23,695 bases of DNA from a virus. The notes below the pieces were generated by a model, which did no database searches, was not told the origin of the DNA, and saw only the letters and a program-made list of their open reading frames with translations. Shown here one piece after another: positions 335 through 19,316 of this stretch (within the stretch, counting starts at the first letter, position 1; each line of letters begins with the position of its first letter). Both the position numbers and the translations under genes were made by a program. The DNA is taken from positions 1-23,695 of the IMG/VR virus record IMGVR_UViG_3300032323_001175; one strand, written 5' to 3'.

Positions 335-1548
335 TGTTTATGTTAGGCCAAGCACTAACACTGGAGCAGCGGCTCCAGAAGGCTGTGATCGACATCATGG
401 CCAACCCCAAATACGTCGCCCTTGCGGGCATCCTGATGATCGGTGGACGCCGCATCGAGGACGATCCTGCCAAGTGCCCGACTGCCTACACCAACGGCAG
501 GGACGAGGTCTATGGCCGTGCCTTCTGCGAGCCTCTGAACGATGCCGAGTTGCGCTTCCTTGTGCTGCACGAGTGCTATCACAAGCTCTATCGTCACCTG
601 ACCACGTGGCGCTGGATGTATGACGAGAACGCTAAGCTGGCCAACATCGCCTGTGACTATGTGATTAACGTCAAGCTGGTGGACGACAACGCAGCGGACG
701 GCTTCGCCAAGATGACGGGCCCGCTCAAGATCGGCTGCTACGACAAGAAGTATGCGGGCTGGGATAGTGCGCAGGTCTACCACGACCTCAAGAACGGCGG
801 ACAGGGCAACGGTGGTGGCTCAGGCTCAGGCTCAGGCACTGGCTTCGATGAGCACGGCTGGGACGATGCCAAGGAGATGACCGCTCAGGAGAAGCAGGAC
901 TTGGCCCGTGAGATCGACGAGGCTGTGCGTCAGGGCGCACTGATGGCGGGCAAGATGGGAAGCGGTGGCGACCGCGACCTTGAAGCGTTGCTCCAGCCCC
1001 AAGTGGATTGGCGTGAGGTGCTGCGTGACTTCGTGCAGGCAACATGTGCAGGGACTGACTATTCCACATGGCGTAGGCCGAACCGCCGATACATCGGCGC
1101 AGGTATCTACATGCCAAGCGGGATCAGCGAGAGCATCGGTGAGATCGTGGTGGCTATCGACACGTCAGGCTCTATCGGCGGGCCGCAGCTGTCCGCCTTC
1201 TTGTCCGAGGTCAAGAGCGTGGCCGAAACCGTCCACCCAGAGGCAATCCGCTTGCTCTACTGGGACACCGCGGTGTGTGGCGACGAGCGCTACGAGGGTG
1301 AGGAACGGGATAAGATCGTGCAGAGCACCAAGCCCAAGGGTGGTGGCGGCACAACAGTTGAGTGCGTGCCTCGCTACCTGCAGGACAAGCAGATCAAGGC
1401 ACAGTGCGTGATCGTGCTGACCGACGGCTATCTGGGCGGCTCATGGGGTGATTGGCAGCACCCGGTCCTGTGGGTCATCCTCGACAACAAGTCGGCTGTC
1501 CCGAGCGTGGGTCAGGCCGTGCACATCAGAGGGAGGGACATGCGGTGA
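334..1548 (+). CDS. DUF2201-type putative metallopeptidase / VWA-domain protein
   Basis: The 404-residue product has two recognisable halves. Residues about 8-120 carry a zincin-like helix with HECYH at 79-83 (HExxH) and a downstream NIACDYVIN segment whose Asp108 could be a third metal ligand; this matches the DUF2201 N-terminal putative metallopeptidase. A Gly/Ser linker (about 155-172, GGCTCA repeated three times in the DNA) follows. Residues about 268-400 form a VWA domain with a complete MIDAS: DTSGS at 276-280, a Thr in GGGGTT near 340, and Asp364 in LTDG. In cellular genomes this family pairs with MoxR-type AAA+ ATPases as chaperone-like assemblies. No signal peptide is seen, so it is probably cytoplasmic. 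Protease activity and substrate are unknown. The ATG overlaps the previous stop, and a GTTAGGC dyad lies inside codons 3-9. Confidence 0.85.
   Translation: MFMLGQALTLEQRLQKAVIDIMANPKYVALAGILMIGGRRIEDDPAKCPTAYTNGRDEVYGRAFCEPLNDAELRFLVLHECYHKLYRHLTTWRWMYDENAKLANIACDYVINVKLVDDNAADGFAKMTGPLKIGCYDKKYAGWDSAQVYHDLKNGGQGNGGGSGSGSGTGFDEHGWDDAKEMTAQEKQDLAREIDEAVRQGALMAGKMGSGGDRDLEALLQPQVDWREVLRDFVQATCAGTDYSTWRRPNRRYIGAGIYMPSGISESIGEIVVAIDTSGSIGGPQLSAFLSEVKSVAETVHPEAIRLLYWDTAVCGDERYEGEERDKIVQSTKPKGGGGTTVECVPRYLQDKQIKAQCVIVLTDGYLGGSWGDWQHPVLWVILDNKSAVPSVGQAVHIRGRDMR
342..360 (+). repeat. GTTAGGC dyad, copy 1
   Basis: GTTAGGC, six bases, CTAACA; with the outer bases this is TGTTAG (341-346) paired with CTAACA (355-360). 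It lies in codons 3-9 of the VWA gene, 8 bases downstream of the ATG. The orientation is the same as in all other copies. Confidence 0.6.
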
Positions 1549-1865
1549 AACCGAGACATGAACCATCTTGGAAGGAGCCCGAAGTTGTTGGCAACGAGAT
1601 TCTAATCGGCCATGTCGGGCCCTTGGACGTCTACTACGAGGACAACTATCACAATAACGAGGAGGAGTGGATTCTCGTGGTCGGGCCGCGCGAGCGCAAG
1701 CTACGCGAACCTTACGTATCCACAACAAACTTCGATATCTATGTGATTACGGATGGGCACAGACTGATGCCCACCGCGTTAAAGCCCGACATCCACATCG
1801 AACTGGCTGAGATGTGTGAGATTTATGCGCTGGCTATCAGCCTTGGATACTTGGAGGAGCAGTGA
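1545..1865 (+). CDS. hypothetical protein (106 aa)
   Basis: I place the start at GTG 1545, which overlaps the VWA stop (TGA 1546-1548) and follows a GGGAGGGAC ribosome binding site. An earlier in-frame ATG at 1452 lies inside the VWA coding region and has no comparable site. The product is probably a soluble, beta-rich protein with segments such as EILIGHVGPLDVYYEDNY and EEWILVVGPRERK. I see no catalytic motif and do not recognise the family. The stop overlaps the next ATG. Confidence 0.7.
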   Translation: MKPRHEPSWKEPEVVGNEILIGHVGPLDVYYEDNYHNNEEEWILVVGPRERKLREPYVSTTNFDIYVITDGHRLMPTALKPDIHIELAEMCEIYALAISLGYLEEQ

Positions 1866-2275
1866 TGGGATACATGAGTGACGTGGTGATTGCCTTTGCA
1901 TTCAACAGCAAAGAGCAGATCGACGAGGTGATGGCGATCTATCGCATGCACAAACTTGTGCAGGAGCATGATCTGGCCAAGGAGTGGCAGGTCCATGACT
2001 GGAATGGTGTATGGGGCCTGACCTACAGCTCAGCCGGTGTGAAGTGGTATGAAACGTATGAGGATGTGCAGGGTTTCGAGCACATGGAAAATGTCGTCGT
2101 GGACTTCGCAGAGAACCGCGAGGGTTTTGAGTATGCCTACCGCAAGATCAGGATCGGCGAGGACGACAGCGACACTGAGTGGAATAGCCACGGCCAGCAA
2201 GAAGATAGAAGCATCCTAGCGGACGAACTCTGGGACCGCATGTCCCTAACCCGTGAGATCAATACAACCTTCTAA
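1865..2275 (+). CDS. hypothetical acidic protein (136 aa)
   Basis: ATG 1865 overlaps the preceding TGA (1863-1865) and sits 7 bases after GGAGG, so it is preferred over the in-frame GTG one codon upstream; ATG 1874 is an alternative. The protein is acidic, rich in Glu, Asp and aromatic residues, and begins with a possible beta-alpha unit (VVIAFAFNSKEQIDEVMAIY). This could be a ferredoxin-like half-fold, but that is inference. No known motif is seen. The gene ends just before the cluster of CTAAC/GTTAG half-sites at 2246-2332. Confidence 0.7.
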   Translation: MGYMSDVVIAFAFNSKEQIDEVMAIYRMHKLVQEHDLAKEWQVHDWNGVWGLTYSSAGVKWYETYEDVQGFEHMENVVVDFAENREGFEYAYRKIRIGEDDSDTEWNSHGQQEDRSILADELWDRMSLTREINTTF

Positions 2276-2280
2276 CCGTC

Positions 2281-2300
2281 GTTAGGCCAACCGACTAACA
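2281..2300 (+). repeat. GTTAGGC dyad, copy 2 (spacer 7)
   Basis: GTTAGGC (2281-2287), a 7-base spacer and CTAACA (2295-2300), wholly inside the 39-base gap between genes and 14 bases before ATG 2315. It is flanked by further CTAAC pentamers at 2246, 2272 and 2328; CTAAC 2272 with GTTAG 2281 forms a second, smaller dyad (CTAACcgtcGTTAG). The spacer is one base longer than in the other copies. Confidence 0.65.
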
Positions 2301-2314
2301 AGAGGATCAATCCA

Positions 2315-3388
2315 ATGACATACATCCCTAACCTGAGCAGCTTCGACGAAGTCGCTAAGAAATACGCCGACACCAAGCCTGTGCGCAGTACACTCCACCC
2401 CGTCGAGCAGGACGTGCGCCCCATCGGCAAGCGTGCCCGCAAGTGGGAACGGATCATCAAGGTCAATGACCACTGCTACGCCCTGTCCTGTGGCGGCTAC
2501 GCCGACCCGGTATTCAACTGGGGCTATACCGACCTACTCAAGGTGCACCCCCTGACCACCAAGGACATCGCGCTGTGTGCTCCCATCGTGTGGCGCAAGC
2601 ACAAGGATGGCACCGAGACGATCACCGTGCGCAACGGGGCGGGTGAGTGGCAGCACAACCAGACCTACTCGTTCATCTCTCGTGCGCTGCCCCGTGAACT
2701 CTGGTTCCGCCAGACCCGTGAGGGCAAGCAGTATATCTACAACCGCGCAGCCGGACAGACGCTGCACCTACCCAAGACCCGCACCGTGCCGCGTCACATC
2801 GTCGAGCACCACAAGAAGGTGGCTACGAAGAACAAATCCTCGTGGTATATCAAGCGCTACCTCAAGGCCTTCCAGACCGGGGACGACGGGCTTAGCGTGA
2901 CGTTCAAGCGTGAGAGTGACGGCAGGTTTACCCTCGTCGGCGAACCCCAGAAGGTCATGGTCGACAGGACCCGTGTGAACAAGGACGAGAAGCGCGAGTT
3001 CAAACCGCACATTGAGGCGCTCTACGGTTGGGCGCAGACCATGTACCCCATGATGCGTGACCAGCTGAACTGGAGTTTTCGGATAGAGATAAACAAGCAG
3101 CTCGACCAGATCGCCGCGGAGCACAAGGTCAATGGCTATGACAGGAGCCACTCCGCCCTGTTTTTAAATGCTGACGCGGCGCTCGTCCGTGCCATCCTGA
3201 AAGACCCTGAGCACGTGATGCGTTACGGCTTTGGTGTGGCGGTCATGATGTCCATGCACGACGCGGAGAGGTCTTACAACGGCTACGATGGCGACGTGGA
3301 GGCGCTGGCTAAGCACATCCGCGCACGCTTCAACAGATGGATCAACGAGATGGCTGGCTTTGCCACCAAAGTGAAGATGGAGAAATAA
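2315..3388 (+). CDS. unrecognised phage protein (357 aa)
   Basis: ATG 2315 follows AAGAGGATC in a short gap that also holds a GTTAGGC dyad. The protein is basic and rich in aromatic residues and His. It has an N-terminal MTYIPNLSSF stretch, a Lys/Arg-rich middle (RHIVEHHKKVATKNKSSW at about 160-177) and a probably helical C-terminal half with many Met and Asp residues. I do not recognise a domain. Its first residues resemble those of the next gene (MTYRYQPNLVSLY), which hints at a shared module or common origin for the block. The basic middle could bind nucleic acid, but nothing proves it. It ends one base before the next ATG. Confidence 0.75.
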   Translation: MTYIPNLSSFDEVAKKYADTKPVRSTLHPVEQDVRPIGKRARKWERIIKVNDHCYALSCGGYADPVFNWGYTDLLKVHPLTTKDIALCAPIVWRKHKDGTETITVRNGAGEWQHNQTYSFISRALPRELWFRQTREGKQYIYNRAAGQTLHLPKTRTVPRHIVEHHKKVATKNKSSWYIKRYLKAFQTGDDGLSVTFKRESDGRFTLVGEPQKVMVDRTRVNKDEKREFKPHIEALYGWAQTMYPMMRDQLNWSFRIEINKQLDQIAAEHKVNGYDRSHSALFLNADAALVRAILKDPEHVMRYGFGVAVMMSMHDAERSYNGYDGDVEALAKHIRARFNRWINEMAGFATKVKMEK

Positions 3389-3389
3389 A

Positions 3390-4295
3390 ATGACATACAG
3401 ATACCAACCAAACCTCGTCTCGCTGTATGCGAATGGCGACCAAGCGCTCAAAGAACAGCACGAGCACTATGAACTCGCAGGTTACCGCGCCGAGCAGATC
3501 AAGAACTTCATCAAGGCCACGTGCAAGGCACTTGGGGCTGTCCACTGCAACCTCGACTACGGCTCCGCCGTGATCTATCGCCCGGGCGACACCCATGTGC
3601 TGGGCGAGATTGGCTTCAAGGATATTCGGGTCAAGGGTAAGGGTGCGTCCGACCCGCAATACTACGTTAGGGCGCGGACTATCGCCAATGGGAAGTATCG
3701 CGACACGATATGGCAGCACAACATCATCGGCACCAAGTCGATGAAGAACGCGGTCAAACATGCGGAGGAATACTTCAAGCCCGTGCCTGCCTTGGAGGCT
3801 ATCCGACTGACCGCGACCCGGGCGCGGAGCGTCGTCGATAAGGCCGTGTCTGTGCACTTCGATGTGGTGCGTAACGCATACCGCCAACTGTTTGGGGACT
3901 CGGGCTACGGCAACAAGTTTGACACGCCGATCTTTCAGGAGTTGCGGCACAGCACCTTCATATCGCCACAGGTAAGCAAACTTATGGCTGAGTTCTTCGA
4001 GGGTCTCGATGCGTGGCGTGAGGCTAAGGGTATCATCGAGAAGGGCATTCACTATGTGTCGCTGACCGACAACTACGGACAGCTGGTAGCCGACACGGCA
4101 CACTGTGGCACGTTTGGACTCGACAACGGGACCGGCGAGATCACGCGGCTTCCCGCTACGGAACTTCCCGAGTGGATGCAGGGTCGCATCGCTGTGCTGC
4201 AGATGCTTAAGCCCGAGAACTACGTGCAGGGGGTGGGCCTGCGGCTAGACGACAAGGTGTTTTATATCATGGGGGACACGACGGATGAAGAATAG
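3390..4295 (+). CDS. unrecognised phage protein (301 aa) with a C-terminal module shared with the next gene
   Basis: ATG 3390 starts one base after the previous stop and is preceded by GGAGA in the end of that gene. The function is not recognised. Residues 259-294 (LPEWMQ, then IAVLQM, then GVGLRLDDKVFYIMG) align with residues 91-130 of the following 134-residue protein (LPAWMQ, LAVLSMM, GVGMRIDDDVFWVI). This shared C-terminal unit points to a partial duplication. The N-terminal two thirds, with HCNLDYGSAVIYRPGDTHV and several basic helices, has no counterpart in the next gene. No membrane span is seen. The stop overlaps the next gene. Confidence 0.75.
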   Translation: MTYRYQPNLVSLYANGDQALKEQHEHYELAGYRAEQIKNFIKATCKALGAVHCNLDYGSAVIYRPGDTHVLGEIGFKDIRVKGKGASDPQYYVRARTIANGKYRDTIWQHNIIGTKSMKNAVKHAEEYFKPVPALEAIRLTATRARSVVDKAVSVHFDVVRNAYRQLFGDSGYGNKFDTPIFQELRHSTFISPQVSKLMAEFFEGLDAWREAKGIIEKGIHYVSLTDNYGQLVADTAHCGTFGLDNGTGEITRLPATELPEWMQGRIAVLQMLKPENYVQGVGLRLDDKVFYIMGDTTDEE

Positions 4296-4689
4296 GATGA
4301 AGCGTATAGTAGACCTGCAGAGGGTCACGGAGCATGATTTGGCCGCAGCGGCGGTGCCCAAACACTTTCGCGCCATGGCGGACGTGCTGAAATATTCGGC
4401 CCAGACCAAGGCGATGCGTGCCCAGTGGACCGCAGACTTTGAGAATGTTTATCGTGTTATGATAGCGCCTAACACTGGATGTGTTGAGGTTGTATGCCTT
4501 GGCATTGATAGTGTTGACAGTGAAGCGGAAGGCACCTACTCTGACAGTTCGCAATTACCTGCGTGGATGCAGGAGAAGCTGGCTGTTCTATCAATGATGA
4601 AGGTTGATCCCCCACAGACAAAGGTCGAGGGGGTCGGCATGCGTATCGACGACGATGTATTCTGGGTCATCAAAGGGGAGAGAGCATGA
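4285..4689 (+). CDS. small paralogue of the preceding protein's C-terminus (134 aa)
   Basis: The start is ATG 4285, inside the end of the previous gene and about 8 bases after GGGGGA; ATG 4297 is an in-frame alternative with a weaker site. The C-terminal 40 residues duplicate the LPxWMQ...GVGxRxDDxVF module of the upstream 301-residue protein. The N-terminal half is helical and Ala-rich. Codons around 4440-4540 are richer in A/T at third positions than in neighbouring genes (for example GAGAATGTTTATCGTGTTAT), a possible sign of different ancestry. Function unknown. Confidence 0.65.
   Translation: MKNRMKRIVDLQRVTEHDLAAAAVPKHFRAMADVLKYSAQTKAMRAQWTADFENVYRVMIAPNTGCVEVVCLGIDSVDSEAEGTYSDSSQLPAWMQEKLAVLSMMKVDPPQTKVEGVGMRIDDDVFWVIKGERA
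4456..4474 (+). repeat. degenerate GTTAG dyad
   Basis: GTTAT, 8 bases, CTAACA. The outer six bases GTGTTA (4454-4459) and TAACAC (4470-4475) are a perfect inverted repeat. The half-site spacing equals that of the consensus dyads, but the left arm has lost GGC. It lies inside the coding region of the 134-residue protein and could be coincidental. Confidence 0.3.
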
Positions 4690-4856
4690 TGGCTAAGTGG
4701 GACGTGACGGAGGAGCCGTTTGAGATCATCGACGAGCGGTTCCTAAATGAGATGGGCCTACGTCCGAAACCGAAACCCGCGCCGCAGCAGGCCGAGCCTG
4801 TTAGGCAGGAGACTAACAGCGATTGGTATAAACAAGGAAAGGAGTGCCCGTTTTGA
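4686..4856 (+). CDS. small hypothetical protein (56 aa)
   Basis: A short open frame begins at ATG 4686 (followed by a second ATG at 4689), overlaps the previous TGA, and ends at TGA 4854-4856. GGGGAGAG lies just upstream. The product starts MMAKWDVTEEPFEIIDERF, continues through a Pro/Lys/Gln-rich stretch (RPKPKPAPQQ) and ends WYKQGKECPF. It fills the only gap in the operon and its end overlaps the TTG start of the next gene. These features support it as a real gene, although it is short and matches no family I know. A GTTAGGC dyad lies in its 3' third. Confidence 0.55.
   Translation: MMAKWDVTEEPFEIIDERFLNEMGLRPKPKPAPQQAEPVRQETNSDWYKQGKECPF
4800..4818 (+). repeat. GTTAGGC dyad, copy 3
   Basis: GTTAGGC, six bases, CTAACA. 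The arms extend to a perfect 7-base inverted repeat, CTGTTAG (4798-4804) with CTAACAG (4813-4819). It ends about 20 bases before the AAAGGAG ribosome binding site of the gene at 4853, inside the small 4686-4856 frame. Confidence 0.65.
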
Positions 4857-5131
4857 GCAACGACCCTATGAGCCCGAACATAACCTCGGAAAAGCTGGAC
4901 GAAATCATGGCGACGCTGCCCGATAGGCTGGAGGAGGCCGAGATTTCCGCGCTGACGCTGACCATCCACAACGCCTACCTCGACGAGCCAGCCGAGATCA
5001 TCAACAACCTGATCGCCACGATCTACTCCTACGGCATGTCTATCGGGATCAGCTACCCGTCAATCTCTGAGGGGCTGCGCCGGACCGCGGACATGCAGGA
5101 CGAGGACTATCAGATTCGGATGCGGAACTGA
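4853..5131 (+). CDS. hypothetical protein (92 aa)
   Basis: I choose TTG 4853, because it overlaps the preceding stop (TTGA) and lies 8 bases after a strong AAAGGAG. The upstream in-frame GTG 4844 overlaps that site, and ATG 4868 is too far from it. The product is acidic and helical (NITSEKLDEIMATLPDRLEEAEISAL...), with no recognised domain. The stop TGA overlaps the ATG of the VRR-NUC gene, so the two are probably co-translated. Confidence 0.65.
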   Translation: MSNDPMSPNITSEKLDEIMATLPDRLEEAEISALTLTIHNAYLDEPAEIINNLIATIYSYGMSIGISYPSISEGLRRTADMQDEDYQIRMRN

Positions 5132-5430
5132 TGGCCGACACCCCGGAGAAGAAGGTCAAAGCCAAGGTGGTGGCCCAGCTGAAAACGCTGGGTGCCTACT
5201 ACTTCTACCCCGTGACAGGCGGATACGGTGCATCGGGTGTTCCTGACATCGTCGCTTGTCTTAAGGGCCGATTCATCGGCATCGAGTGCAAGGCCAATGG
5301 CAACAAGCCTACGGCACTGCAGCAGATGAACCTAGACAAGATCGCGGCGCAGGGCGGCATCGCCCTCGTCATCGACGAAACCAACGTGAATGAATTGAAA
5401 GGGATGATCGAGAATGTTCTGGAAAGCTAA
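5131..5430 (+). CDS. VRR-NUC domain nuclease
   Basis: A compact 99-residue protein, the usual length for stand-alone phage VRR-NUC domains. It has the PD-(D/E)XK arrangement: an N-terminal helix with Glu6, then GVPDI with Asp39, then IECKA with Glu52 and Lys54, and QQ at 64-65 in the following helix. VRR-NUC proteins are structure-selective nucleases related to the FAN1 C-terminal domain and Holliday-junction resolvases; phages often carry them beside family A polymerases and SNF2 helicases. The likely role is resolving branched replication or recombination intermediates, though the exact substrate is inferred. The ATG overlaps the upstream stop, and the next gene overlaps its 3' end by 17 bases. 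Confidence 0.9.
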   Translation: MADTPEKKVKAKVVAQLKTLGAYYFYPVTGGYGASGVPDIVACLKGRFIGIECKANGNKPTALQQMNLDKIAAQGGIALVIDETNVNELKGMIENVLES

Positions 5431-5632
5431 ACGCGCCGAGGCCATGCCGCACCGAGACGTGCAGGCAGAGGCCGCACTAGGGATCAACAGCGCAGCGCAG
5501 GTGCTGCCACCCAAGAGGTTCATGGACCTCGTCTACTGGGCCATCATTAGCAATCGCCAGATCAGCGTCGAGGACATCGACGCGCTGGCCAACCGACTGT
5601 CGCGCATGGCGTGGGAACGGGGGCGGAAATGA
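5414..5632 (+). CDS. small hypothetical protein (72 aa)
   Basis: ATG 5414 overlaps the end of the VRR-NUC gene by 17 bases and follows AAAGGGATGATCGAGA; ATG 5444 is a shorter alternative. The product has a basic start (MFWKAKRAEAMPHRD) and a helical C-terminal half (ISVEDIDALANRLSRMAWERGRK). Family not recognised. Its stop overlaps the ATG of the next gene. Confidence 0.6.
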   Translation: MFWKAKRAEAMPHRDVQAEAALGINSAAQVLPPKRFMDLVYWAIISNRQISVEDIDALANRLSRMAWERGRK

Positions 5633-5799
5633 GAGACTTTTGGGACAACCTCGTGCCGATGGCGCTGATCGCTTGCGCCGCCTTCTTCATCTACGGGCTG
5701 GGTCAGGTGATCTTTTCCGACATGGAGAAAGCTCAGGTCCGTTACGAACAGTGCATCGACGCAGGCAAGCAATGGGTTGAGGGGAACTGTGTGAAATGA
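5629..5799 (+). CDS. small single-span membrane protein (56 aa)
   Basis: ATG 5629 overlaps the previous TGA and is preceded by GGGGGCGGAA. An upstream in-frame start at 5611 would lie inside the previous gene with no better site. Residues about 8-29 (LVPMALIACAAFFIYGLGQV) form one hydrophobic span. The short tail has two Cys residues (QCIDAGKQWVEGNC) that could form a disulphide if the C-terminus is periplasmic. The size and layout could fit an inner-membrane accessory such as a small lysis or exclusion protein, but there is no specific motif and no adjacent lysis gene. Confidence 0.6.
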   Translation: MRDFWDNLVPMALIACAAFFIYGLGQVIFSDMEKAQVRYEQCIDAGKQWVEGNCVK

Positions 5800-6191
5800 T
5801 CGACATGACCAACAACCGAGTGCCGTATGGCCTGCTGACCGACGAGGAAAAGGCTGCGCTGCATGAGCATGAGAAGGCGGGTGGGGAGTTTAAGTATTGG
5901 TGCGGTGAATGGGCGCAAGTTAAACCTTCTTGGTATTACAACATGATCTACCGCACCGTCCCCCTGCCCAAGACCCAAGACGTGATCGCATGGGAGAAGC
6001 TGCCTGATTGGGTTGAGTGGGTGGCGCGGAATAATTCAGGCGGAGTTTGGGCTTATCAGAAAGAACCACTCATGTTGTCTATCATGTGGGATAATGTCGG
6101 AGGTGACCTCCGCCGCATCGACGACTTCCCCGGCATCGTGTTCCACGGGACAGTGGATTGGAAAGAAAGCAAACAGCGGAGGCCGAGATGA
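5796..6191 (+). CDS. hypothetical phage protein (131 aa)
   Basis: ATG 5796 overlaps the preceding TGA. The protein begins MIDMTNNRVPYGLLTDEEKAAL and contains many Trp and Tyr residues (EFKYWCGEWAQVKPSWYY, then MIYRTVP). In my recollection, proteins with a LTDEEKAAL start followed by a Trp-rich middle are common small phage proteins of unknown role. No catalytic motif is visible. The last bases overlap the next start (ATGA), which supports membership of the accessory operon. Confidence 0.7.
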   Translation: MIDMTNNRVPYGLLTDEEKAALHEHEKAGGEFKYWCGEWAQVKPSWYYNMIYRTVPLPKTQDVIAWEKLPDWVEWVARNNSGGVWAYQKEPLMLSIMWDNVGGDLRRIDDFPGIVFHGTVDWKESKQRRPR

Positions 6192-6415
6192 GTGGGTATT
6201 GCTACGGAGAGCCAGAGCCAAAAGAAAACTGTCCGTATTGCGGGCAAGAGTGCTGGGCAATTTTTGTGGATATTGGAGTTGGTATGCAGCAAGTCGCTCC
6301 GTTTGCCTGCGAAGGCTGTCACGCCGTTCAGATTGGACCTTACGATGAGGAGCGTCCGCTAACGGAGCAAGAAATTAAGACGGGTTGGTATGAGCCTGAG
6401 TTGAGGAGAATATAA
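6188..6415 (+). CDS. zinc-ribbon-like small protein (75 aa)
   Basis: ATG 6188 overlaps the preceding TGA; an in-frame ATG at 6158 lies in the previous gene without a clear ribosome site. Two Cys pairs, CPYC (15-18) and CEGC (41-44), are spaced as in a zinc ribbon. The rest is short and ends TGWYEPELRRI. It is not a clear member of a named family. It sits directly upstream of a Lar-type protein with similar architecture and could be a diverged relative. Confidence 0.65.
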   Translation: MSGYCYGEPEPKENCPYCGQECWAIFVDIGVGMQQVAPFACEGCHAVQIGPYDEERPLTEQEIKTGWYEPELRRI

Positions 6416-6416
6416 A

Positions 6417-6770
6417 ATGAGTGACGATCTAAAACCCTGCCCGTTCTGTGGTGGAGAACCCTTCTCCTTTGAAGACTACGGCCACTCTACAGCATGGGAA
6501 GTTGGCTGTTCCAATTCTTCGTGTCGTGTGGAGCCGCATGTATGGGAGAAAACAAAAGACGAAGCTATCGCTTCATGGAACACCCGCACCAAGACCAAGG
6601 CTGAGCAAGCCTTCGACCAACAGATTGCGGACTATGTGACGGAACTGGTGGAAGCAGCGAAAGCACTAATGGCGCGCTGGCCGACAGATCAGCATTCTGC
6701 AAGCCCGCTTTACGAGGAAGCCCAGAGGCTGCGCGCCGCCGTCGCAAAAATGAAGGGAGAGAAGGGATGA
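6417..6770 (+). CDS. Lar-family restriction alleviation protein
   Basis: The N-terminal 57 residues match the Lar family: LKPCPFCGGEP with Cys8 and Cys11, a second pair at Cys31 and Cys36, and the closing DEAIASWNTR signature. Lar of the Rac prophage modulates type I restriction and modification, relieving restriction of incoming DNA. Many phage members of this domain family are untested, so anti-restriction is the family role and not a demonstrated one. Residues 58-117 add a helical tail (about 63-110) not needed for the domain. The ATG starts one base after the upstream stop, and the stop overlaps the next ATG (ATGA). Confidence 0.8.
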   Translation: MSDDLKPCPFCGGEPFSFEDYGHSTAWEVGCSNSSCRVEPHVWEKTKDEAIASWNTRTKTKAEQAFDQQIADYVTELVEAAKALMARWPTDQHSASPLYEEAQRLRAAVAKMKGEKG

Positions 6771-8718: not shown

Positions 8719-8728
8719 GGAAATGACC

Positions 8729-9442: not shown

Positions 9443-9447
9443 GAGGT

Positions 9448-12688: not shown

Positions 12689-12693
12689 TTGCC

Positions 12694-12951
12694 ATGCCAT
12701 ACACGAAGTCGCCTAGACCTTATAAGCACGAATACCAGAAGCAGAAAGAGCGTGGGGAACATGAGCGCCGCATGGAGCGGCAGCGCGCTCGGCGTGCCTT
12801 GGACAAGAAGGGCGTCGACCGCACAGGCAAGGACGTGAGCCACAAGAAGGCTCTAGCCAAAGGCGGGAGCAACGCCGACGGCTACAAACTGGAGTCGCCA
12901 TCGAAGAACCGGAGCCGGAACGGTCATAAGCCCGGCGAGAAAAAGAGTTAG
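12694..12951 (+). CDS. small basic HNH-like protein (85 aa)
   Basis: ATG 12694 lies 9 bases after a GGGGG tract; a TTG at 12685 is an alternative. The protein is strongly basic. Residues about 45-80 read GKDVSHKKALAKGGSN, then SPSKNRSRNGHKPG. The DxxH, Lys-Gly-Gly-Ser-Asn and Asn...His pattern resembles an HNH core (His, Asn, His), but the usual zinc-binding Cys pairs are absent. It may be a minimal or degenerate HNH nuclease, or simply a DNA-binding protein. The stop codon (TAG 12949-12951) lies inside a GTTAGGC dyad. Confidence 0.65.
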   Translation: MPYTKSPRPYKHEYQKQKERGEHERRMERQRARRALDKKGVDRTGKDVSHKKALAKGGSNADGYKLESPSKNRSRNGHKPGEKKS

Positions 12952-12965
12952 GCACAAGCCTAACA
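12947..12965 (+). repeat. GTTAGGC dyad, copy 4 (perfect hairpin)
   Basis: GTTAGGC-ACAA-GCCTAAC is a perfect 7-base inverted repeat with a 4-base loop, followed by A to give CTAACA. It spans the stop codon of the HNH-like gene and the 29-base gap before the helicase, 15 bases upstream of ATG 12981 and just before the CGGAGA ribosome site. No T tract follows, so it is not a typical terminator. Confidence 0.75.
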
Positions 12966-12980
12966 CCTCGGAGAACAAAC

Positions 12981-14516
12981 ATGCAGATCATCGACAATAA
13001 GGCGTTGCTGTTAAAGCTACGCAATCCAAAACAAGTCTCTACGATCATCCCAAAGAGCAAGGTGATCGGTGAACATGAGGTCGTCGTTAACTGGGGTGTG
13101 CAAGAGGCACGTACCCTACGCGGCCTGAACATCAAGGTGCCGTCACCCATCGAGGGCCGTTACAACTGGACGGGCAAGTTCGCTCCGATGTCGCACCAGC
13201 GCACGACGGCGTCCTTCCTGACCATGAACCAGAAGGCGTTCTGCTTCAACGAGGCGGGGACGGGCAAGACGGCCAGCGCGATCTGGGCCGCGGACTTTCT
13301 CATGAAGCAGGGCATCATCAAGCGGGCTCTGGTCATCTGCCCGCTCTCGATCATGGACAGTGCGTGGCGTGCGGACCTGTTCACGTTTGCTATGCACCGG
13401 ACTGTAGACGTCGCCCACGGCACCTCGGCCAAGCGCAAGAAGATCATCGCCGGGAAGCCTGACTTCCTCATCATCAACTATGATGGCGTTGAGATCGTGC
13501 GGGACGATATCGCTGCGGCGGGTTACGACCTCATCATCGTGGACGAGGCCAGCCACTACAAAAACGCCATGAGTAAGCGCTGGAAGGTGCTGAACTCGCT
13601 GGTGAAGCCCGAGACATGGCTCTGGATGATGACAGGCACCCCTGCGGCTCAGGGGCCCGAGGACGCGTTCGGCTTGGCGAAGCTGGTCAACCCAGCGGGC
13701 GTGCCTAAGTTCTTCAACGCTTGGAAGGACATGGTGATGTACAAGGTCTCCGCGTTTCGCTGGAAACCCAAGGAGCACTCTGAGCGCACTGTGCACCGGG
13801 CCCTGCAGCCTGCCATCCGCTACACCAAGGAAGAATGCCTAGACCTACCGGACATGCTCTACGTTAAGCGGGACGTGGCCCTGACCAAGCAACAGGACCT
13901 CTACTACAACCGTCTCAAGAACCAGATGGTCATGGAGGTGGCCGGGGCGCAGATCACGGCGGTGAACGCGGCTGTGATGATGGGTAAGCTGCTCCAGATT
14001 TCTGCAGGTGCGAGCTACACCGAATCCGGCGACACAGTGCAGTTCGACATCAACAACCGCTACAGCGTCCTCAAGGAGGTCATCGCCGAAAGTACCCACA
14101 AGGTGCTGGTGTTCGTGCCGTTCAAGCACGTCATCGAGATGCTGTCGGCGCAGCTGTCCAAGGATGGTATCACTAACGCCGTCATCAACGGCGACGTGAC
14201 CGCCGCAAACCGGACTGAAATCTTCAAACAGTTTCAGAGCCAGCCCGACCCTCGGGTGCTGGTCATCCAGCCGCAGGCTGCAGCGCACGGCGTGACGCTC
14301 ACGGCGGCAAACACAGTTGTCTGGTGGGCACCGACATCGTCGCTCGAGACCTACGCGCAGGCTAACGCGCGGGTGCACCGCAAGGGGCAGGCCAACAAGT
14401 GCACCGTGGTGCAGCTGCAGGGCTCTGGCGTAGAACGTCGTGTCTACAGGCTGCTTGACGAGAAGATTGACGTGCACACTAAGGTCGTCGATCTTTATAA
14501 AGAATTGCTTGACTAG
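12981..14516 (+). CDS. SNF2-type superfamily 2 helicase/translocase
   Basis: 511 residues, a typical size for compact phage SNF2 proteins. The motifs appear in order: Gln73 region SHQRTTASF, Walker A EAGTGKT (91-97), Walker B VDEASH (187-192), motif III MTGTP (217-221), a second RecA-like domain with VLVFVPFKHV and VINGDVTAANR, and motif VI QANARVHRKGQ (460-470), whose RxHRxGQ ending is diagnostic of SNF2. The role is ATP-driven DNA translocation or remodelling at forks or recombination intermediates. ATG 12981 follows CGGAGA and is preceded by the hairpin at 12947-12965. This gene, the polymerase, the VRR-NUC nuclease and the primase match a gene set often found together in phages. Confidence 0.92.
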   Translation: MQIIDNKALLLKLRNPKQVSTIIPKSKVIGEHEVVVNWGVQEARTLRGLNIKVPSPIEGRYNWTGKFAPMSHQRTTASFLTMNQKAFCFNEAGTGKTASAIWAADFLMKQGIIKRALVICPLSIMDSAWRADLFTFAMHRTVDVAHGTSAKRKKIIAGKPDFLIINYDGVEIVRDDIAAAGYDLIIVDEASHYKNAMSKRWKVLNSLVKPETWLWMMTGTPAAQGPEDAFGLAKLVNPAGVPKFFNAWKDMVMYKVSAFRWKPKEHSERTVHRALQPAIRYTKEECLDLPDMLYVKRDVALTKQQDLYYNRLKNQMVMEVAGAQITAVNAAVMMGKLLQISAGASYTESGDTVQFDINNRYSVLKEVIAESTHKVLVFVPFKHVIEMLSAQLSKDGITNAVINGDVTAANRTEIFKQFQSQPDPRVLVIQPQAAAHGVTLTAANTVVWWAPTSSLETYAQANARVHRKGQANKCTVVQLQGSGVERRVYRLLDEKIDVHTKVVDLYKELLD

Positions 14517-14537
14517 TGTAACGGATGTCATTAGATA
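14509..14537 (+). promoter_or_regulatory. weak candidate sigma70-like promoter
   Basis: TTGACT (14509-14514), a 17-base spacer and TAGATA (14532-14537). The -35 matches 5 of 6 consensus bases and the -10 only 3 of 6. It lies at the end of the helicase gene and in the 50-base gap before 14567, one of the few gaps in the early region. Confidence 0.25.
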
Positions 14538-14550
14538 TCAATTTCTGATA
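14536..14550 (+). promoter_or_regulatory. short inverted repeat, possible operator
   Basis: TATCA-ATTTC-TGATA is a perfect 5-base inverted repeat directly after the candidate -10 and just before the GAAGGAGA ribosome site of the next gene. The location suits a repressor site, but it is short enough to arise by chance. Confidence 0.25.
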
Positions 14551-14566
14551 GTGAAGGAGAACCACT

Positions 14567-14980
14567 ATGACTGCTGATACTGTGGGCGAAACCGCCCTCA
14601 CCCCCGAGGTGCTGACCAAGACCTACATCAAAATCCGCGACAAGCGGGCCGAGCTCAAAGCCGAGTTCGAGCAGAAGGATGAGGTTCTGGAGATGCAGCT
14701 CAACACCATCAAGTCGGAGCTGCTCGACTACTGCAAGACGCAGGGTATCGACAGCGTTCGCACCCCGTCGGGAGTGTTTTACCGGACGATGAAGACGCGC
14801 TACTGGACCAACGACTGGGACTCGATGAACAGGTTCATCTTGGAAAACGAGGTTCCGCAGTTCTACGAGAAGCGTCTCAATCAGACCATCGTGAAGCAGT
14901 TCCTCGAAGAAAACCCTGACGTGCTCCCGCCCGGTCTGAACTCCGACAGCGAGTACGTCATCACTGTGAGGAAGAAGTAA
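14567..14980 (+). CDS. conserved phage protein of unknown function (137 aa)
   Basis: ATG 14567 follows GAAGGAGAACCACT. Residues about 12-60 are helical and charged (TKTYIKIRDKRAELKAEFEQ), probably a coiled coil. Then comes a conserved-looking globular part: GIDSVRTPSGVFYRTMKTRY, WTNDWDSMNRFI, FLEENPDVLPPGLN. I recall this layout from phage proteins found beside HTH and SSB genes. It loosely recalls Gam-type host-nuclease inhibitors (coiled coil plus small domain), but I cannot confirm that. The stop TAA overlaps the next ATG. Confidence 0.7.
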   Translation: MTADTVGETALTPEVLTKTYIKIRDKRAELKAEFEQKDEVLEMQLNTIKSELLDYCKTQGIDSVRTPSGVFYRTMKTRYWTNDWDSMNRFILENEVPQFYEKRLNQTIVKQFLEENPDVLPPGLNSDSEYVITVRKK

Positions 14981-15207
14981 TGACCGAAACTCCAACCCCG
15001 TTCGCCACCATTGAGGACGTAGCAAAGTACTTCGTCGTCTCGGTTGCGACCGTGCGTACATGGCTGCGTAACGGCACCATCCCGAAACACACCTACCTCA
15101 AGGCGGGTAACACCTACAGGTTCAACCTGCCCGACGTGGCAGCGGCCCTTGTCAACGCACCGAAAGAACCGGTGCAGTTGGAACTAGACCTCGACAACAA
15201 AAACTAA
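14980..15207 (+). CDS. excisionase/MerR-type helix-turn-helix protein (75 aa)
   Basis: The N-terminal 55 residues fit the HTH_17/excisionase-like fold: FATIEDVAKYFVVSVATVRT (8-27), WLRNGTIP (28-35), then a wing ending YRFNLPDVAAAL. This family includes phage excisionases and small regulators that bend or recognise DNA. No integrase lies in the window, so an Xis role is unsupported; a transcriptional or replication regulator is equally possible. The C-terminal tail is acidic (LELDLDNKN). It overlaps the previous stop (TAATG) and its end carries the AAGGAG site of the next gene. Confidence 0.8.
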   Translation: MTETPTPFATIEDVAKYFVVSVATVRTWLRNGTIPKHTYLKAGNTYRFNLPDVAAALVNAPKEPVQLELDLDNKN

Positions 15208-15217
15208 GGAGAACGAC

Positions 15218-16120
15218 ATGAGTGAAATGACCCTCTTCGGTGCTGGCAACCCGCTGGCAAATAGCGACCTCTTCAAGTCGCTGCGTGACATGAACAAAAC
15301 CCTCGCTGGTGGCGGCGGTGGCGGCGGTAAGCGCATCTCGATCAAAGGCAACAAGTTCCGCCTCTTCGTCGATGGTGAGCAGGTCTCTGTGTCCAAGGAA
15401 GATCACCTGAACATCGTGGTGGTTAACGTCGCTGCGGTCTCGCGTACCTACTACGAGGGCACCTACGACCCGAATAACACGGCTGCACCGACCTGCTGGT
15501 CGGCTGATACCAAAACGCCTTCGCCTGATGTGCCCGCGGATCAGAAGAAAGCCTCGCGCTGCACCGACTGCCCGATGAACGTCAAGGGCTCGGGACAGGG
15601 CGACAGCCGTGCCTGCCGCTTCAACCAACGTCTGGCGATCACGCTCGAGGGCAAGCCTGACGAAGTCTACCAGCTGCAGCTCCCGGCCACGTCGCTGTTC
15701 GGTGACGGCAAGAATGGCAAGATGCCGATGCAGGCGTATGCTAAGTTCCTTGACGCGCACGACACGCCGATCATCGCGGTCATGACCAAGATGTCGCTGG
15801 ACGAAAACTCGGAGACCCCGAAGCTGTTCTTTAGCCCCGTGCGTCCTCTGACCGAGAAAGAGCTGCACGAGGCTGTCGCAGTCAAGGACAGCGAAGATGC
15901 CATCAAGGCTATCACGCTGACCGTTTCGCAGACCGACGGTGTTAAGAAGGACTCCGCGGCTGGGACCAAGAGCTACAATCCGGCCAAGGAGAAGATCATC
16001 GTCGATGACGAGGACGAGATCGCAGAGCCTAAGAAGGTCGAAGCCAAGAAGATGGCAATGGCCGGTGCAGGTGCTAAGCCTGACCTCTCGGCTATTGTCA
16101 CGGAATGGGACGACGAGTAA
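15218..16120 (+). CDS. putative single-stranded DNA-binding protein with zinc ribbon and acidic tail
   Basis: 300 residues. After a flexible start with a seven-Gly run (31-37), residues 38-210 are beta-rich. Four Cys residues (Cys93, Cys115, Cys118, Cys133) lie in TCWSADTK, SRCTDCPMN and RACRFNQR, as in a zinc ribbon inserted in a DNA-binding core. Residues 255-300 are disordered and charged, ending DLSAIVTEWDDE. A basic/beta core with an acidic tail containing an aromatic residue is the layout of phage SSBs such as T7 gp2.5 and T4 gp32, whose tails bind replication partners. SSB is therefore the best assignment, but it rests on layout and context. ATG 15218 follows AAGGAGAACGAC. Confidence 0.7.
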   Translation: MSEMTLFGAGNPLANSDLFKSLRDMNKTLAGGGGGGGKRISIKGNKFRLFVDGEQVSVSKEDHLNIVVVNVAAVSRTYYEGTYDPNNTAAPTCWSADTKTPSPDVPADQKKASRCTDCPMNVKGSGQGDSRACRFNQRLAITLEGKPDEVYQLQLPATSLFGDGKNGKMPMQAYAKFLDAHDTPIIAVMTKMSLDENSETPKLFFSPVRPLTEKELHEAVAVKDSEDAIKAITLTVSQTDGVKKDSAAGTKSYNPAKEKIIVDDEDEIAEPKKVEAKKMAMAGAGAKPDLSAIVTEWDDE

Positions 16121-16134
16121 TCCTTAATAGGCTC

Positions 16135-16174
16135 GCCGCGACGGGGGATAAAAACAACCTCACCTCGTCGCGGC
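16135..16174 (+). promoter_or_regulatory. long hairpin in the leader of the primase-helicase gene
   Basis: GCCGCGACG (16135-16143) and CGTCGCGGC (16166-16174) are a perfect 9-base inverted repeat. It extends inward to 12 pairs with one G-U (16144-16146 with 16163-16165), leaving an A-rich 16-base loop (GATAAAAACAACCTCA). No T run follows on either strand, so it is not a standard intrinsic terminator. It fills most of the 78-base gap between the SSB-like and primase genes. It could be an RNA-stability or processing element, an attenuator, or a protein or replication-initiation site. Confidence 0.6.
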
Positions 16175-16198
16175 ACCCCAACAGATAGAGTGGCGGCT

Positions 16199-19057
16199 AT
16201 GGATACAACGACGTTTTTGCAGTCCGTTCTTGGAACTGCAGGCTCCTACTGCGTTCTTGCCCTCAATGATGGCAGGCGCATTCAGAAGTTCTACGACACC
16301 ATCGAGCAGCTTGAGCAGGCTGCGCTGAACTTCGACGAGAATGGTTTCGATGCCTACTACGCCCTCGGCACGTTCGAGGAGGCGGGTTCGCGTGAGGCCG
16401 AGAACGTCAAGCAGATGCGGGCGTTCTTTATGGACCTCGACTGCGGGGTGAACCTCAAGACGGGCAAGCCCAAGGACTTCCCTGACCAGCATGCCGCCAT
16501 CTTGGCGCTCAAGGAGTTCGTGAAGACCACCGGGCTGCCTAAGCCGTTCCTCGTCAACTCCGGCTACGGTGTGCACGTTTACTGGCCGCTGACCGCGCCT
16601 GTAGACTTTATGGCATGGCTCCGCGTGGCTGAGAAGCTCAAGGCGCTGGCCAAGGCGAAGGGGTTCAAGGCCGACGAGGCCGTGACCGCCGATGCTGCCC
16701 GCGTGCTGCGAGTGCCGGGGACGCATAACCACAAGGGCGACGACCCCAAGGCTGTGTCGTTTTTCGGGGTGTCCGCACCAGAGCCAGTGGAGTTCTTTGA
16801 CTTCGCTGCACGGCTCGAGACCGTGGCCGGTAGTCTGCCGACTAGCCTGCCCGCGCGGCGCTACTCACCTGCGGTGACAAACAGCGCGATGATGGATGCC
16901 CTGATCGGCAGGCGGGAAGCCTCGTTCAAAAACATCATGCAGAAGACCGTGGCGGGTAAGGGCTGTGCCCAGCTGGCCTACTGCATCGAGAACCGCGCCG
17001 ATCTGGCTGAGCCCATGTGGCGCGCGGCGCTCTCTATCGCCAAGCACTGCACCGATATGGTCAAGGCTGTGAAGGCGGTTTCGCAGGGGCACGCCGAATA
17101 CGACGAAGGCGAGGCGATGTGGAAGGCTGACCGCATCAAGGGCCCGTACCTCTGCACGCGCTTCGAGGAGTACAACCCGGGTGGGTGCCAAGGCTGCCCC
17201 AACTGGAACAAGATCAAGTCGCCCATCGTTCTCGGCCAGCAGTTCACTGAGGCTGCGCCCGAGGACAACACCGTCGTCGTAGCGGACCCAGACGCACCCG
17301 AGGCACCACCGAGGGTCTATGAAATCCCGAGCTACCCCAACCCCTACTTCCGCGGCAAGGATGGCGGCGTGTTCATCCGTATAATTGACGACGAGGGCGA
17401 GGTCAGTGAGCGGATTGTCTGGCACCACGATCTCTACGTCGTGCGCCGCCTGTATGACCCGGAGCAGGGCGAGATCATCGAGATGCGTCACCACCTACCA
17501 CGGGATGGAGTGCGGTCGTTTGTGGTGCCGCTCTACGTCGTCACATCGAAAGAAGAATTTCGGAAAGTCCTCGCCACCAACGGCGTCATAGCGATCAACA
17601 AGGAAGTGGATGCGATCATGAGCTTTACGCAAAGCATGGTTAAAGACCTGCAGATCACCACGCAGGCAGACAACGCACATCGCCAGTTCGGCTGGCTGCC
17701 CGACTTCAAGGGCTTTGTCCTCGGGGACAAGGTAGTCTATGCGGACCGGGTCGATTTCAACGCACCGTCCTCGGCTACACGAGGGATGATCGAGTTCTTT
17801 GAGCCTGCGGGTAGCCTCGACGAGTGGCGTGCCGCGGTCAACTTCTACAACCGCCCCGGCTTCGAGCTGCACCAGTTCATCACCTGCGTCGGTTTCGGCT
17901 CGGTGCTGATGAAGTTCTTGCCCATCAACGCCGCGCTCCTGCACATCTGGTCGAAGGACTCCGGTTTCGGCAAAACGCATGCCCAGTTTGCGGCACTATC
18001 GGCGTGGGGCAACCCCAATAAACTTATCCTGCAGGAGCGGGACACCGTAAACTCGTTCATGAACCGCGCCGATGTGATGCACAGCCTGCCGGTTTGTATG
18101 GACGAAGTTACCAACATCAAGCCCCACGACGCCTCAAACATGATCTACCAGATCACCGGGGGCCAGCAGCGCAACCGCTTGGCATCGACGGGCAACACTG
18201 AACGCTATCGTGGCGACCCTTGGAACCTGCTGTTTATTTCGTCGGGGAACTGCAGCCTGATCGACAAGGTGGCTATGGCGAAGGCCATGCCGAAAGCGGA
18301 AGCCCAGCGAGTGCTGGAGATCGAGACGAGCAGGCTCTTCACCGAGAAGGCCGACAAGCGCCAGACCGACGAGTTCAGTTCCAAGGTCCAGAGCAACTAC
18401 GGCCACGCAGGCATCCTGTTTGTGCAGTACGTGATGTCCAACCTCGCCGAAACTAAATTGCTGGTGGAGACCCTACAGCGCAAGATTGATGAAGCCGCAG
18501 ACCTTGGGCCTCAGAACCGCTTCTGGTCGGCAGCTGTCGCCACCTCCCTCGCCGCTGCGGTGATCTGCAAACACCTCGAGCTCTTGGACTACGACATCCC
18601 CACGCTGCGCGACTACATCATCAAGAACATCCTCAAGGCCAACAAGGCGGTCAGTGCTGATATGTCTCTCGACCCGATGGACCTCGTGACTGCCTACACC
18701 TACCAGAACTTGGGTCGCATCCTGCAGATCAAGTCCACCATCGACCGCCGCAGCAAGGGGAACGACAACGGCCTCGACGACCTCGTGGTGCCAGATCAGC
18801 AGCCAAAGACCGCCGACATCGTCGGGCGCTACGAGACCGATCTGCACGTGCTGTATCTCCTGCCGTCCCCGTTCAAGGTCTGGCTGGCCGAGCAGCAGAT
18901 AAACTACAACTCGGTGTTCTCCGAGCTCAAAGCCAAGTACAATGCCAAGAAGTCGAAGGTCCGGCTGACTAAGGGCACCAAGCTACAGATGCCCGTCGCC
19001 GACACCATCGAGGTGCCGATTGTTCTGGGTGACGTTAATGGCGAAGAAGGTAAATGA
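16199..19057 (+). CDS. primase-helicase: AEP-type primase fused to DUF927-like ATPase
   Basis: 952 residues from ATG 16199; GTG 16190 is an in-frame alternative without a better site. The N-terminus is an archaeo-eukaryotic-type primase: FMDLDCG with Asp79 and Asp81, SGYGVHVYW with His126, and RVPGTHNHK near 171-179. A Cys cluster (Cys319, Cys330, Cys333 in YLCTRFEEYNPGGCQGC) may bind zinc. From about 490 a DUF927-like helicase follows, with GWLPDFKGFVLGD, Walker A KDSGFGKT (Lys592) and Walker B VCMDEV (Asp635, Glu636). It should prime and unwind DNA at the phage origin. No DnaB or DnaG gene is visible, so this protein may do both jobs. The long hairpin at 16135-16174 lies in its leader. Confidence 0.9.
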   Translation: MDTTTFLQSVLGTAGSYCVLALNDGRRIQKFYDTIEQLEQAALNFDENGFDAYYALGTFEEAGSREAENVKQMRAFFMDLDCGVNLKTGKPKDFPDQHAAILALKEFVKTTGLPKPFLVNSGYGVHVYWPLTAPVDFMAWLRVAEKLKALAKAKGFKADEAVTADAARVLRVPGTHNHKGDDPKAVSFFGVSAPEPVEFFDFAARLETVAGSLPTSLPARRYSPAVTNSAMMDALIGRREASFKNIMQKTVAGKGCAQLAYCIENRADLAEPMWRAALSIAKHCTDMVKAVKAVSQGHAEYDEGEAMWKADRIKGPYLCTRFEEYNPGGCQGCPNWNKIKSPIVLGQQFTEAAPEDNTVVVADPDAPEAPPRVYEIPSYPNPYFRGKDGGVFIRIIDDEGEVSERIVWHHDLYVVRRLYDPEQGEIIEMRHHLPRDGVRSFVVPLYVVTSKEEFRKVLATNGVIAINKEVDAIMSFTQSMVKDLQITTQADNAHRQFGWLPDFKGFVLGDKVVYADRVDFNAPSSATRGMIEFFEPAGSLDEWRAAVNFYNRPGFELHQFITCVGFGSVLMKFLPINAALLHIWSKDSGFGKTHAQFAALSAWGNPNKLILQERDTVNSFMNRADVMHSLPVCMDEVTNIKPHDASNMIYQITGGQQRNRLASTGNTERYRGDPWNLLFISSGNCSLIDKVAMAKAMPKAEAQRVLEIETSRLFTEKADKRQTDEFSSKVQSNYGHAGILFVQYVMSNLAETKLLVETLQRKIDEAADLGPQNRFWSAAVATSLAAAVICKHLELLDYDIPTLRDYIIKNILKANKAVSADMSLDPMDLVTAYTYQNLGRILQIKSTIDRRSKGNDNGLDDLVVPDQQPKTADIVGRYETDLHVLYLLPSPFKVWLAEQQINYNSVFSELKAKYNAKKSKVRLTKGTKLQMPVADTIEVPIVLGDVNGEEGK

Positions 19058-19256
19058 CCTAGACCCCGACGGTGTGCGCATCATCGTGCCGTGGCGAGAA
19101 CTGCATGTGGGGGGCTCACTCTTTGTCCCCTGCATCAACACTGAGGCCTGCGAGAGACAGGTTCAGGGTGTGGCAGAAAGGTTAGGCATCCGCCTAACAT
19201 GCAGGCAGCGGATAGAGGCCCAACACTTGGGGTTGCGAATTTGGAGAACCACATGA
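19038..19256 (+). CDS. small hypothetical phage protein (72 aa)
   Basis: ATG 19038 overlaps the end of the primase gene by 20 bases with a modest GGGTGACG site upstream; an in-frame start at 19020 is also possible. The sequence (VPWRELHVGGSLFVPCINTE, then RLGIRLTCRQRIEAQHLGLR, ending IWRTT) resembles widespread short phage proteins with the pattern WxxLxVGxSxFVPC and a final LRxWR, whose function is unknown. It is the last plus-strand gene before the terminator and contains a GTTAGGC dyad. Confidence 0.65.
   Translation: MAKKVNDLDPDGVRIIVPWRELHVGGSLFVPCINTEACERQVQGVAERLGIRLTCRQRIEAQHLGLRIWRTT
19181..19199 (+). repeat. GTTAGGC dyad, copy 5 (perfect hairpin)
   Basis: GTTAGGC-ATCC-GCCTAAC plus A is again a perfect 7-base inverted repeat with a 4-base loop. 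It lies in the 3' part of the last early gene, about 120 bases before the terminator. The loop and spacing match copy 4, but the loop sequence differs. Confidence 0.7.
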
Positions 19257-19268
19257 TATTGTGCGCCT

Positions 19269-19302: not shown

Positions 19303-19316
19303 GTTCTCCATACTGG

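Follow-up and report, generated by a model that had tools for sequence, protein, structure and literature searches.

A multi-copy array of two-fold symmetric dyads, conserved in the early region of a group of phages, as candidate binding sites of a phage-encoded protein

The virus record IMGVR_UViG_3300032323_001175, analysed here over its entire 23,695 bases (hereafter, the window), spans the distal portion of an early region that runs rightward and meets a large leftward gene, and carries five copies of an inverted repeat (dyad) of the form GTTAGGC-N6/7-CTAACA, which were noticed in a first-pass annotation and were all found exactly where it had placed them. The early genes of the window encode a VWA-type metallopeptidase-like protein, a DNA polymerase, an SNF2 helicase, an HTH_17 (helix-turn-helix, HTH) protein and a primase/helicase. 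The head of the early region, in which most copies sit in the related IMG/VR records G001, G002, G006 and G018, lies outside the window.

The first dyad (342–360, GTTAGGCCAAGCACTAACA) falls within the first codons of the VWA/metallopeptidase-like gene (334–1548); it has a counterpart at the same gene position in G001 (59113) and, at approximately the same codon and with altered bases, in G016 (12781; proteins 48% identical), while no dyad occupies this position in G002, G006, G013 and G018, G013 having one upstream of the gene. The second (2281–2300, the form with an N7 spacer) lies 14 nt before the ATG at 2315 and corresponds to G001 61034, a similarly placed copy being found in G018 (58751), ahead of its next gene. 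The third (4800–4818; G001 counterpart at 63734) ends 25 nt before the putative GTG start of the open reading frame (ORF) at 4844. The fourth (12947–12965) overlaps the stop codon of the preceding ORF and ends 15 nt before the ATG of the SNF2-type DNA helicase gene (12981–14516, + strand, phrog_62), and the fifth (19181–19199) lies inside a 78-aa ORF (19020–19256), downstream of the primase/helicase gene (16190–19057, + strand); these two genes served as anchors for finding relatives. As had been annotated, the last two copies have perfect 7-bp arms (GTTAGGC/GCCTAAC), the first is inside a gene start and the next three are shortly upstream of starts, to which it must be added that no gene start follows the fifth copy. 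Moreover, the list of five was incomplete: a sixth, near-cognate site with one mismatch (8990–9007, GTTAGGGCGATGCCTACC) occurs inside the ORF 8681–9442, and exact dyads stand at its apparent counterpart in G001 (1509), G002 (42053) and G006 (14868). The pentamer form GTTAG-N8-CTAAC is its own reverse complement, so that the common orientation originally ascribed to the copies rests on the inner bases alone; it holds for those of the window, and fails in the near-identical G001, where the copy at 55608 (GTTAGTCCGTCGCCTAAC) reads the opposite way.

The claim that the copy number exceeds chance was confirmed by shuffling. With codon-preserving shuffles, in which non-coding bases were permuted as well, the strict form was absent from 496 of 500 sequences and present once in the four others, against five copies observed, and the pentamer form was absent from 490 and present once in 10; with dinucleotide shuffles of the window, matches occurred in 0 of 100. 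A megablast of the window against phage records returned no match, and the direct repeats detected in the window were set aside, as they appear to be chance coding similarity.

IMG/VR searches yielded 32 loci for the primase and at least 80 for the SNF2 helicase, with 103 locus identifiers (L007–L109) among the matches listed, to which the locus counts below refer. A scan for GTTAG-N6..10-CTAAC in the 18 records from which the longer loci came gave a match in 17, while a reversed-pattern control had none in any of the 18. Fifteen of these records were fetched and their dyads counted as GTTAG-N7/8/9-CTAAC (five for the window in the same listing). Eight of them hold 11 to 22 copies (G001 14, G002 17, G006 22, G013 11, G018 12, G015 20, G016 22, G017 18), and the sites are conserved in relatives; G003 is nearly a copy of G001, and G015 and G016 are closely alike, so that the counts of these records are not independent. 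The copies are concentrated in the early region, with bounds drawn from gene direction after the sites had been seen: 14 of 14 in 24.1 of 65.6 kb in G001, 17 of 17 in 25.5 of 60.5 kb in G002, 11 of 11 in 27.8 of 64.2 kb in G013 and 12 of 12 in 15.9 of 59.8 kb in G018, the remaining 41.5, 35.0, 36.4 and 43.9 kb, respectively, being devoid of dyads. Among the 15 fetched records, only G011, G015 and G016 have a dyad past the end of the early region, one each, and in G019 20 of 21 dyads fall in one 18-kb block, with one elsewhere. Shuffled early regions (20 shuffles per genome) contained on average 0.00 to 0.05 exact dyads, and in an unbiased count of palindromes with 5-base arms the GTTAG dyads rank first in the window, G001, G002, G006 and G016. 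At the head of the region, the sites surround the first early gene; those of G001 and G016 also lie, by eye, near promoter-like TATAAA/TATAAT boxes.

Two further features of this head region were recorded. Beside the head-of-region dyads, several relatives carry another repeat, CCAGTTCTCA or CCAGTTCTTA with a GC-rich tail after it (oriented records: G001 54069–54185, G006 9–280, G018 52778–53023). In addition, a non-coding, AT-rich stretch in which the words AATGTTNC and CATTGATTT recur adjoins, by eye, the dyad cluster (oriented records: G001 ~54330–54640, G006 330–650, G018 52970–53330) and is possibly, judging by eye, a replication origin.

Conservation was followed at two of the sites. Upstream of the SNF2 gene, 75 nt were searched in 79 records (the window and 78 of the 80 listed loci, L054 and L068 having no gene start), and a dyad was found in 47 of them. 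These dyads fall into 18 sequence forms of 16, 17 or 18 bp, in which the inner pairs (GGC/GCC, GGG/CCC, TG/CA, and GCTAG/CTAGC) mostly change jointly, and 43 of the 47 stand 10–17 nt before the ATG. Two other motifs were dropped, the TAGCTA dyads of L100, which were a tandem repeat, and the GTTATA dyads of L073, which were overlapping copies. The fifth dyad is kept in the window and in all 19 of the 32 primase loci whose match reaches the end of the gene. Across 15 distinct sequences, its 10 arm bases are all invariant, whereas five of the eight inner bases vary, and the third codon positions of the arms are invariant (3/3), while elsewhere in the 78-aa ORF this is true of 15 of 62; one other place in this ORF is equally invariant, from 19230–19233 onward, within the candidate RNA block described below.

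The arms themselves differ by clade, the types being GTTAGG, GTTAGC, GTTAGTG, GCTAGG and GTTACC. At position 6, beside GTTAG, the pair in G006 is G-C for 20 of 22 dyads, in G018 T-A for 12 of 12, and in G016 C-G for 15 of 22. The sites thus vary from clade to clade, and only some of the genomes have a uniform type. Along the early region of G001, the inner bases change, from mostly GTTAGTC..GACTAAC at the head, through hybrids in the middle, to GTTAGGC..GCCTAAC at the distal end, which may possibly reflect graded affinity or two binders.

An array of the same kind is present in a distant, cultured phage, the Rhizobium phage RHph_TM29 (24–39% protein identity). In an unbiased count of gapped palindromes, TTACC-N6-GGTAA and GTTAC-N8-GTAAC rank first in this genome, and 54 sites over the whole record fit GTTACC-gap-GGTAAC when one mismatch is allowed; the gap is 6 in 37 of them and 5 in the other 17, gaps 2–4 and 7–10 giving none, while three sets of control arms gave 0, 0 and 1 sites. 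The array extends over early and late regions at about one site per kb, the early part (28.1 kb) holding 33 sites and the rest of the genome 21. Among the 47 sites between 15.0 and 60.9 kb, 30 are fully in coding sequences, five straddle the end of one and 12 are intergenic (coding fraction 0.88); 14 of the 47 lie at most 60 nt upstream of a start, against a random mean of 4.1 and a maximum of 12 in 2000 draws. The early region of RHph_TM29 (L148) also encodes about 12 small proteins with, by eye, a common AMLLG-like motif (21644–24193, 24742–25014, 33747–34040, 36755–36991 and 37495–37713). As for the other named phages, no enriched dyad of such geometry is present in the portions fetched from Rollin (39.3 of 61.3 kb), KPP25 (44.1 of 64.1 kb) and phiA008 (50.0 of 65.3 kb), which means that the element does not track the polymerase and helicase genes everywhere.

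That the array exists, is conserved, has a constrained spacing and differs in its inner arm bases between clades is shown by the sequences. With regard to its nature, three lines of evidence (tight spacing, no clear preference for G.U pairs and no -10 element) favour two-fold sites in double-stranded DNA over RNA hairpins or promoters. First, the gap is 8 in 72 of 75 dyads of G001, G002, G006 and G016 (gaps 4–13 tested), and such a near-fixed spacer speaks against a hairpin, because a hairpin loop would not need it. Second, a stem in the sense-strand RNA should favour G.T among one-sided arm mismatches, so that the absence of a clear preference counts against it: over nine sequences, RHph_TM29 being oriented to its transcripts, there are 18 G.T, 17 A.C and 35 other mismatches, counts which are not independent since the nine include near relatives (4, 8 and 21 in the eight sequences other than RHph_TM29). 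Third, the conserved flank columns in seven genomes form no -10 or -35 element; they are few, and either next to the dyad, scattered or (G018) within the ribosome-binding site, and six sigma-70-like sites were found in positions 1–20000 of the window, where 6.5 are expected. We therefore put at about even the chance that the dyads form a multi-copy array of 16–19 bp two-fold sites in double-stranded DNA, bound by a phage-encoded protein and working in a stoperator-like manner. Among the explanations offered in the first-pass annotation, this agrees in a broad sense with operators of a phage regulator and speaks against RNA hairpins; a replication role, also proposed there, falls under the genome-organising alternative considered below.

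A series of observations weighs against this reading. Two or three spacer lengths coexist in G013, G018 and RHph_TM29, which would be unusual for a rigid dimer, and G001, G002 and G013 each mix two or more types of inner pairs. The seven other fetched records are poor in dyads (G003 7, G011 5, G007 3, G010 3, G012 3, G004 1, G009 1), exact copies being few even in the long records G010 (51 kb) and G009 (39 kb), although in these two the TTAGG-N6-CCTAA dyads go beyond those with the outer pair, to five and three in all. Furthermore, no dyad was found upstream of the SNF2 gene in 32 of the 79 records, nor anywhere in some loci of 7–16 kb. Taken alone, the mismatches of RHph_TM29 lean weakly towards G.T (14, versus 9 A.C and 14 other), and two copies of G013 (53022 and 56162) are the stem of terminator-like hairpins with T-rich tails. 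The 47 sites of RHph_TM29 are evenly spaced (coefficient of variation 0.49; none of 5000 uniform draws was as even), a regularity not shared by G002, G006, G016 and G017. A search of 10 records for tyrosine integrases (PF00589), which did not extend to serine integrases, repressors or plasmid-type lysogeny, returned none, so that a lysogeny repressor is not obvious. Finally, two candidate binder genes raise difficulties. The HTH_17 protein, which is the sole near-universal HTH protein, occurs in loci lacking visible dyads as well, and the first early gene of the G001 type has no significant profile match to the G016, G018 and RHph_TM29 types.

If the dyads are sites in double-stranded DNA, a phage-encoded protein with two equivalent DNA-contacting units would bind each of them and, one step further, might act along the early transcription unit. 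At promoter-proximal sites, it would limit initiation, whereas at sites before ribosome-binding sites and inside genes it would block the elongating RNA polymerase, so that early transcription would be damped or shut off as the protein accumulates. A roadblock is favoured, in the window's group, by the array following the early transcription unit, its density at the head in several records and its frequent position just before gene starts. We regard as possible, though rather doubtful, the fuller proposal of a roadblock system in phages with no detected integrase, in which one phage protein would mark the early region (in RHph_TM29, the genome at intervals of ~1 kb), the arms and spacer of its 10–50 copies drifting with the specificity of the protein. 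Such a system would amount to a regulon scattered through a viral genome, whose recognition code visibly evolves clade by clade.

The alternative that survives best, which we hold to be less probable again, is that the dyads are genome-organising sites for a phage nucleoid-like, partition, replication or packaging protein. The even spread of the sites over both regions of RHph_TM29, across its whole genome, keeps such a role possible, and in G001, G006 and G018 copies near the head of the early region lie, by eye, beside the AT-rich repeat-bearing non-coding stretch. However, the array of the window's group is nearly confined to the early region, and the RHph_TM29 sites are enriched just upstream of gene starts.

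Somewhat less likely still are RNA hairpins in the early transcripts, acting in 5' untranslated region processing, as translational operators or as antitermination signals. The placement of the dyads 10–17 nt before the start codon at the SNF2 gene, the mostly joint change of inner pairs between clades and the two G013 terminator-like copies all fit this idea, as does the G.T lean of RHph_TM29. In the window, two of six sites also show folding clearly superior to that of shuffled sequence (12947, z -4.4; 4800, z -3.3). Yet the four other window sites have z of -1.6 or weaker, G.U is not preferred over A.C in the summed mismatches, the loop length is nearly fixed, sites occur inside genes, and the window has no Rfam match at gathering score. 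Moreover, 37 of the 54 RHph_TM29 sites have one uncompensated broken pair, and in the main stretch of that genome one of eight double changes falls at a matched pair, where 0.7 is expected and control arms predict 3.7 such sites. The dyad centres are mostly non-complementary. An outward stem extension of at least four pairs was seen in six of 111 dyads of nine sequences (about 2% expected), the two terminator-like copies of G013 among them.

We find it unlikely that the sites belong to a host-encoded DNA-binding protein, exploited or tolerated by the phage. No binder was found among the phage proteins examined, and the hosts of the window's group are not identified; against this, the prevailing arm sequence differs between related phages, for which a phage-encoded factor would be the easiest explanation. 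It is very improbable that the dyads are promoters, whole or in part, used by an RNA polymerase of phage or host: many copies do precede gene starts, but the sites are palindromic, many are inside genes, their flanks lack -10/-35 elements and sigma-70-like sites are at chance level. As for a by-product of chance or codon usage, to which three of the six window sites lying in ORFs might point, it is refuted by the codon-preserving shuffles and by copy numbers and spacing in relatives, and can be given practically no credit.

Concerning the protein that might bind the sites, the two HTH products put forward in the first-pass annotation both fared poorly. The HTH_17 (excisionase/BldC-like) protein (14980–15207, + strand, 75 aa) is conserved and a weak candidate: it has a tblastn match in 100 of the 103 loci (the three misses, L025, L055 and L083, being short or cut fragments) and a Pfam match in all seven IMG/VR records searched (above the cut-off in six, below it in G006), while Rollin and KPP25 have none and RHph_TM29 reaches 13.5 bits, below the cut-off. 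In fold it comes closest to Pukovnik Xis and BldC (best E 6.2e-3), and excisionase/BldC proteins are known to bind direct repeats; besides its presence in loci without visible dyads, its helix SVSTIRAWVRQG is the same in L073, which has no dyad before SNF2, and in the GTTAGTG record L097. The 102-aa product at 7953–8261 (+ strand), named HTH at first, has no Pfam match up to E 0.1, and its homologues were detected only in G001 and G002, hence in three of 10 records with the window (some of them fragments), whereas dyads of some form occur in all ten. Dyads flank the first early gene in G001, G018 and G016; the head genes of G013 and G018 match each other at 34%, and an AlphaFold model of the first early gene was unusable (mean predicted local distance difference test score 39.9). 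In RHph_TM29, EVB31_044 has, by eye, several HTH-like segments with weak PHROG matches, and EVB31_056 is HTH-like by eye. No close relatives of the helicase were confirmed in bacterial genomes.

Apart from the dyads, a candidate structured phage RNA lies within 19225–19345, where the last early gene gives way to the convergent one. A promoter-like TTGCG...TGATATTGT is followed by a predicted three-way junction closed by GGAGAAC/GTTCTCC, then by a strong terminator. In 12 aligned sequences (the window and 11 relatives), most pairs are kept, with a two-sided change in one of 27 pairs; the outer pairs are broken as aligned in some sequences, L022 and L024 among them, and G016 and G018 seem, by eye, to retain the outer stem with altered bases. 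GTTCTCC is complementary to the common Shine-Dalgarno sequence of the phage, GGAGAAC (six occurrences on the + strand in positions 1–19260 of the window, five then followed by ATG or GTG). The segment has no Rfam match.

The statement that no such element had been described holds for the sequence, as our literature searches listed no description of GTTAG/GTTAC dyads in phages, judged mainly from titles and abstract openings, and not for the kind of element, which has a parallel in mycobacteriophages. Three known systems are relevant here. The stoperators of Cluster A phages (L5, TipsytheTRex) are short sites that occur more than 20 times in a genome, both in promoters and in narrow gaps between genes; they are described as asymmetric 13-mers, oriented with transcription, at which a monomeric immunity repressor is proposed to halt elongation (PMC9283540). 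The dyads likewise form many short sites (11–22 in eight relatives), but they are two-fold symmetric, their orientation does not follow transcription (the pentamer being self-complementary and the inner bases of G001 mixed), and no tyrosine integrase was found in the 10 records. The start-associated sequences (SAS) of Cluster K, asymmetric 13-mers tied to translation starts, and their extended form (ESAS), which includes an inverted repeat, also lie in many copies just upstream of translation starts, according to the account in PMC3203893. Many dyads are placed in the same way, but others are inside genes, and a SAS-like partner is not seen at most of them. If roadblock control were true, stoperator-type regulation would extend beyond temperate mycobacteriophages. 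Binding, transcription and mutation tests would be straightforward in RHph_TM29, a named phage whose genome is complete, whose host is recorded as Rhizobium and which has three near relatives on record.

The closest parallel is found in Cluster O mycobacteriophages such as Corndog, whose genomes are reported to carry more than 30 copies of a 17-bp dyad, TGTTCGG-N3-CCGAACA, between and inside genes, the large majority away from predicted promoters, in phages with no integrase (PMC4351075). The authors predict dimeric DNA-binding proteins and leave the function unexplained, and the arms are invariant among the 34 sites listed for Corndog (PMC4351075). The dyads of the window's group resemble them in being present in tens of copies, intergenic as well as intragenic (11–22 in eight of 15 relatives and 54 near-cognate sites in RHph_TM29), while differing in sequence and geometry, in the mycobacterial host of Cluster O, in inner arm bases that vary within and between clades over a total length of 16–19 bp, and in the near confinement of the array to the early region. 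Clade-wise differences in arms and spacer are not known to be reported for the Cluster O dyads. In architecture, the two are the same kind of thing in different phage groups, and where the Corndog paper left dispersed dyads unexplained in phages without an obvious lysogeny system, the present group offers a large comparative set.

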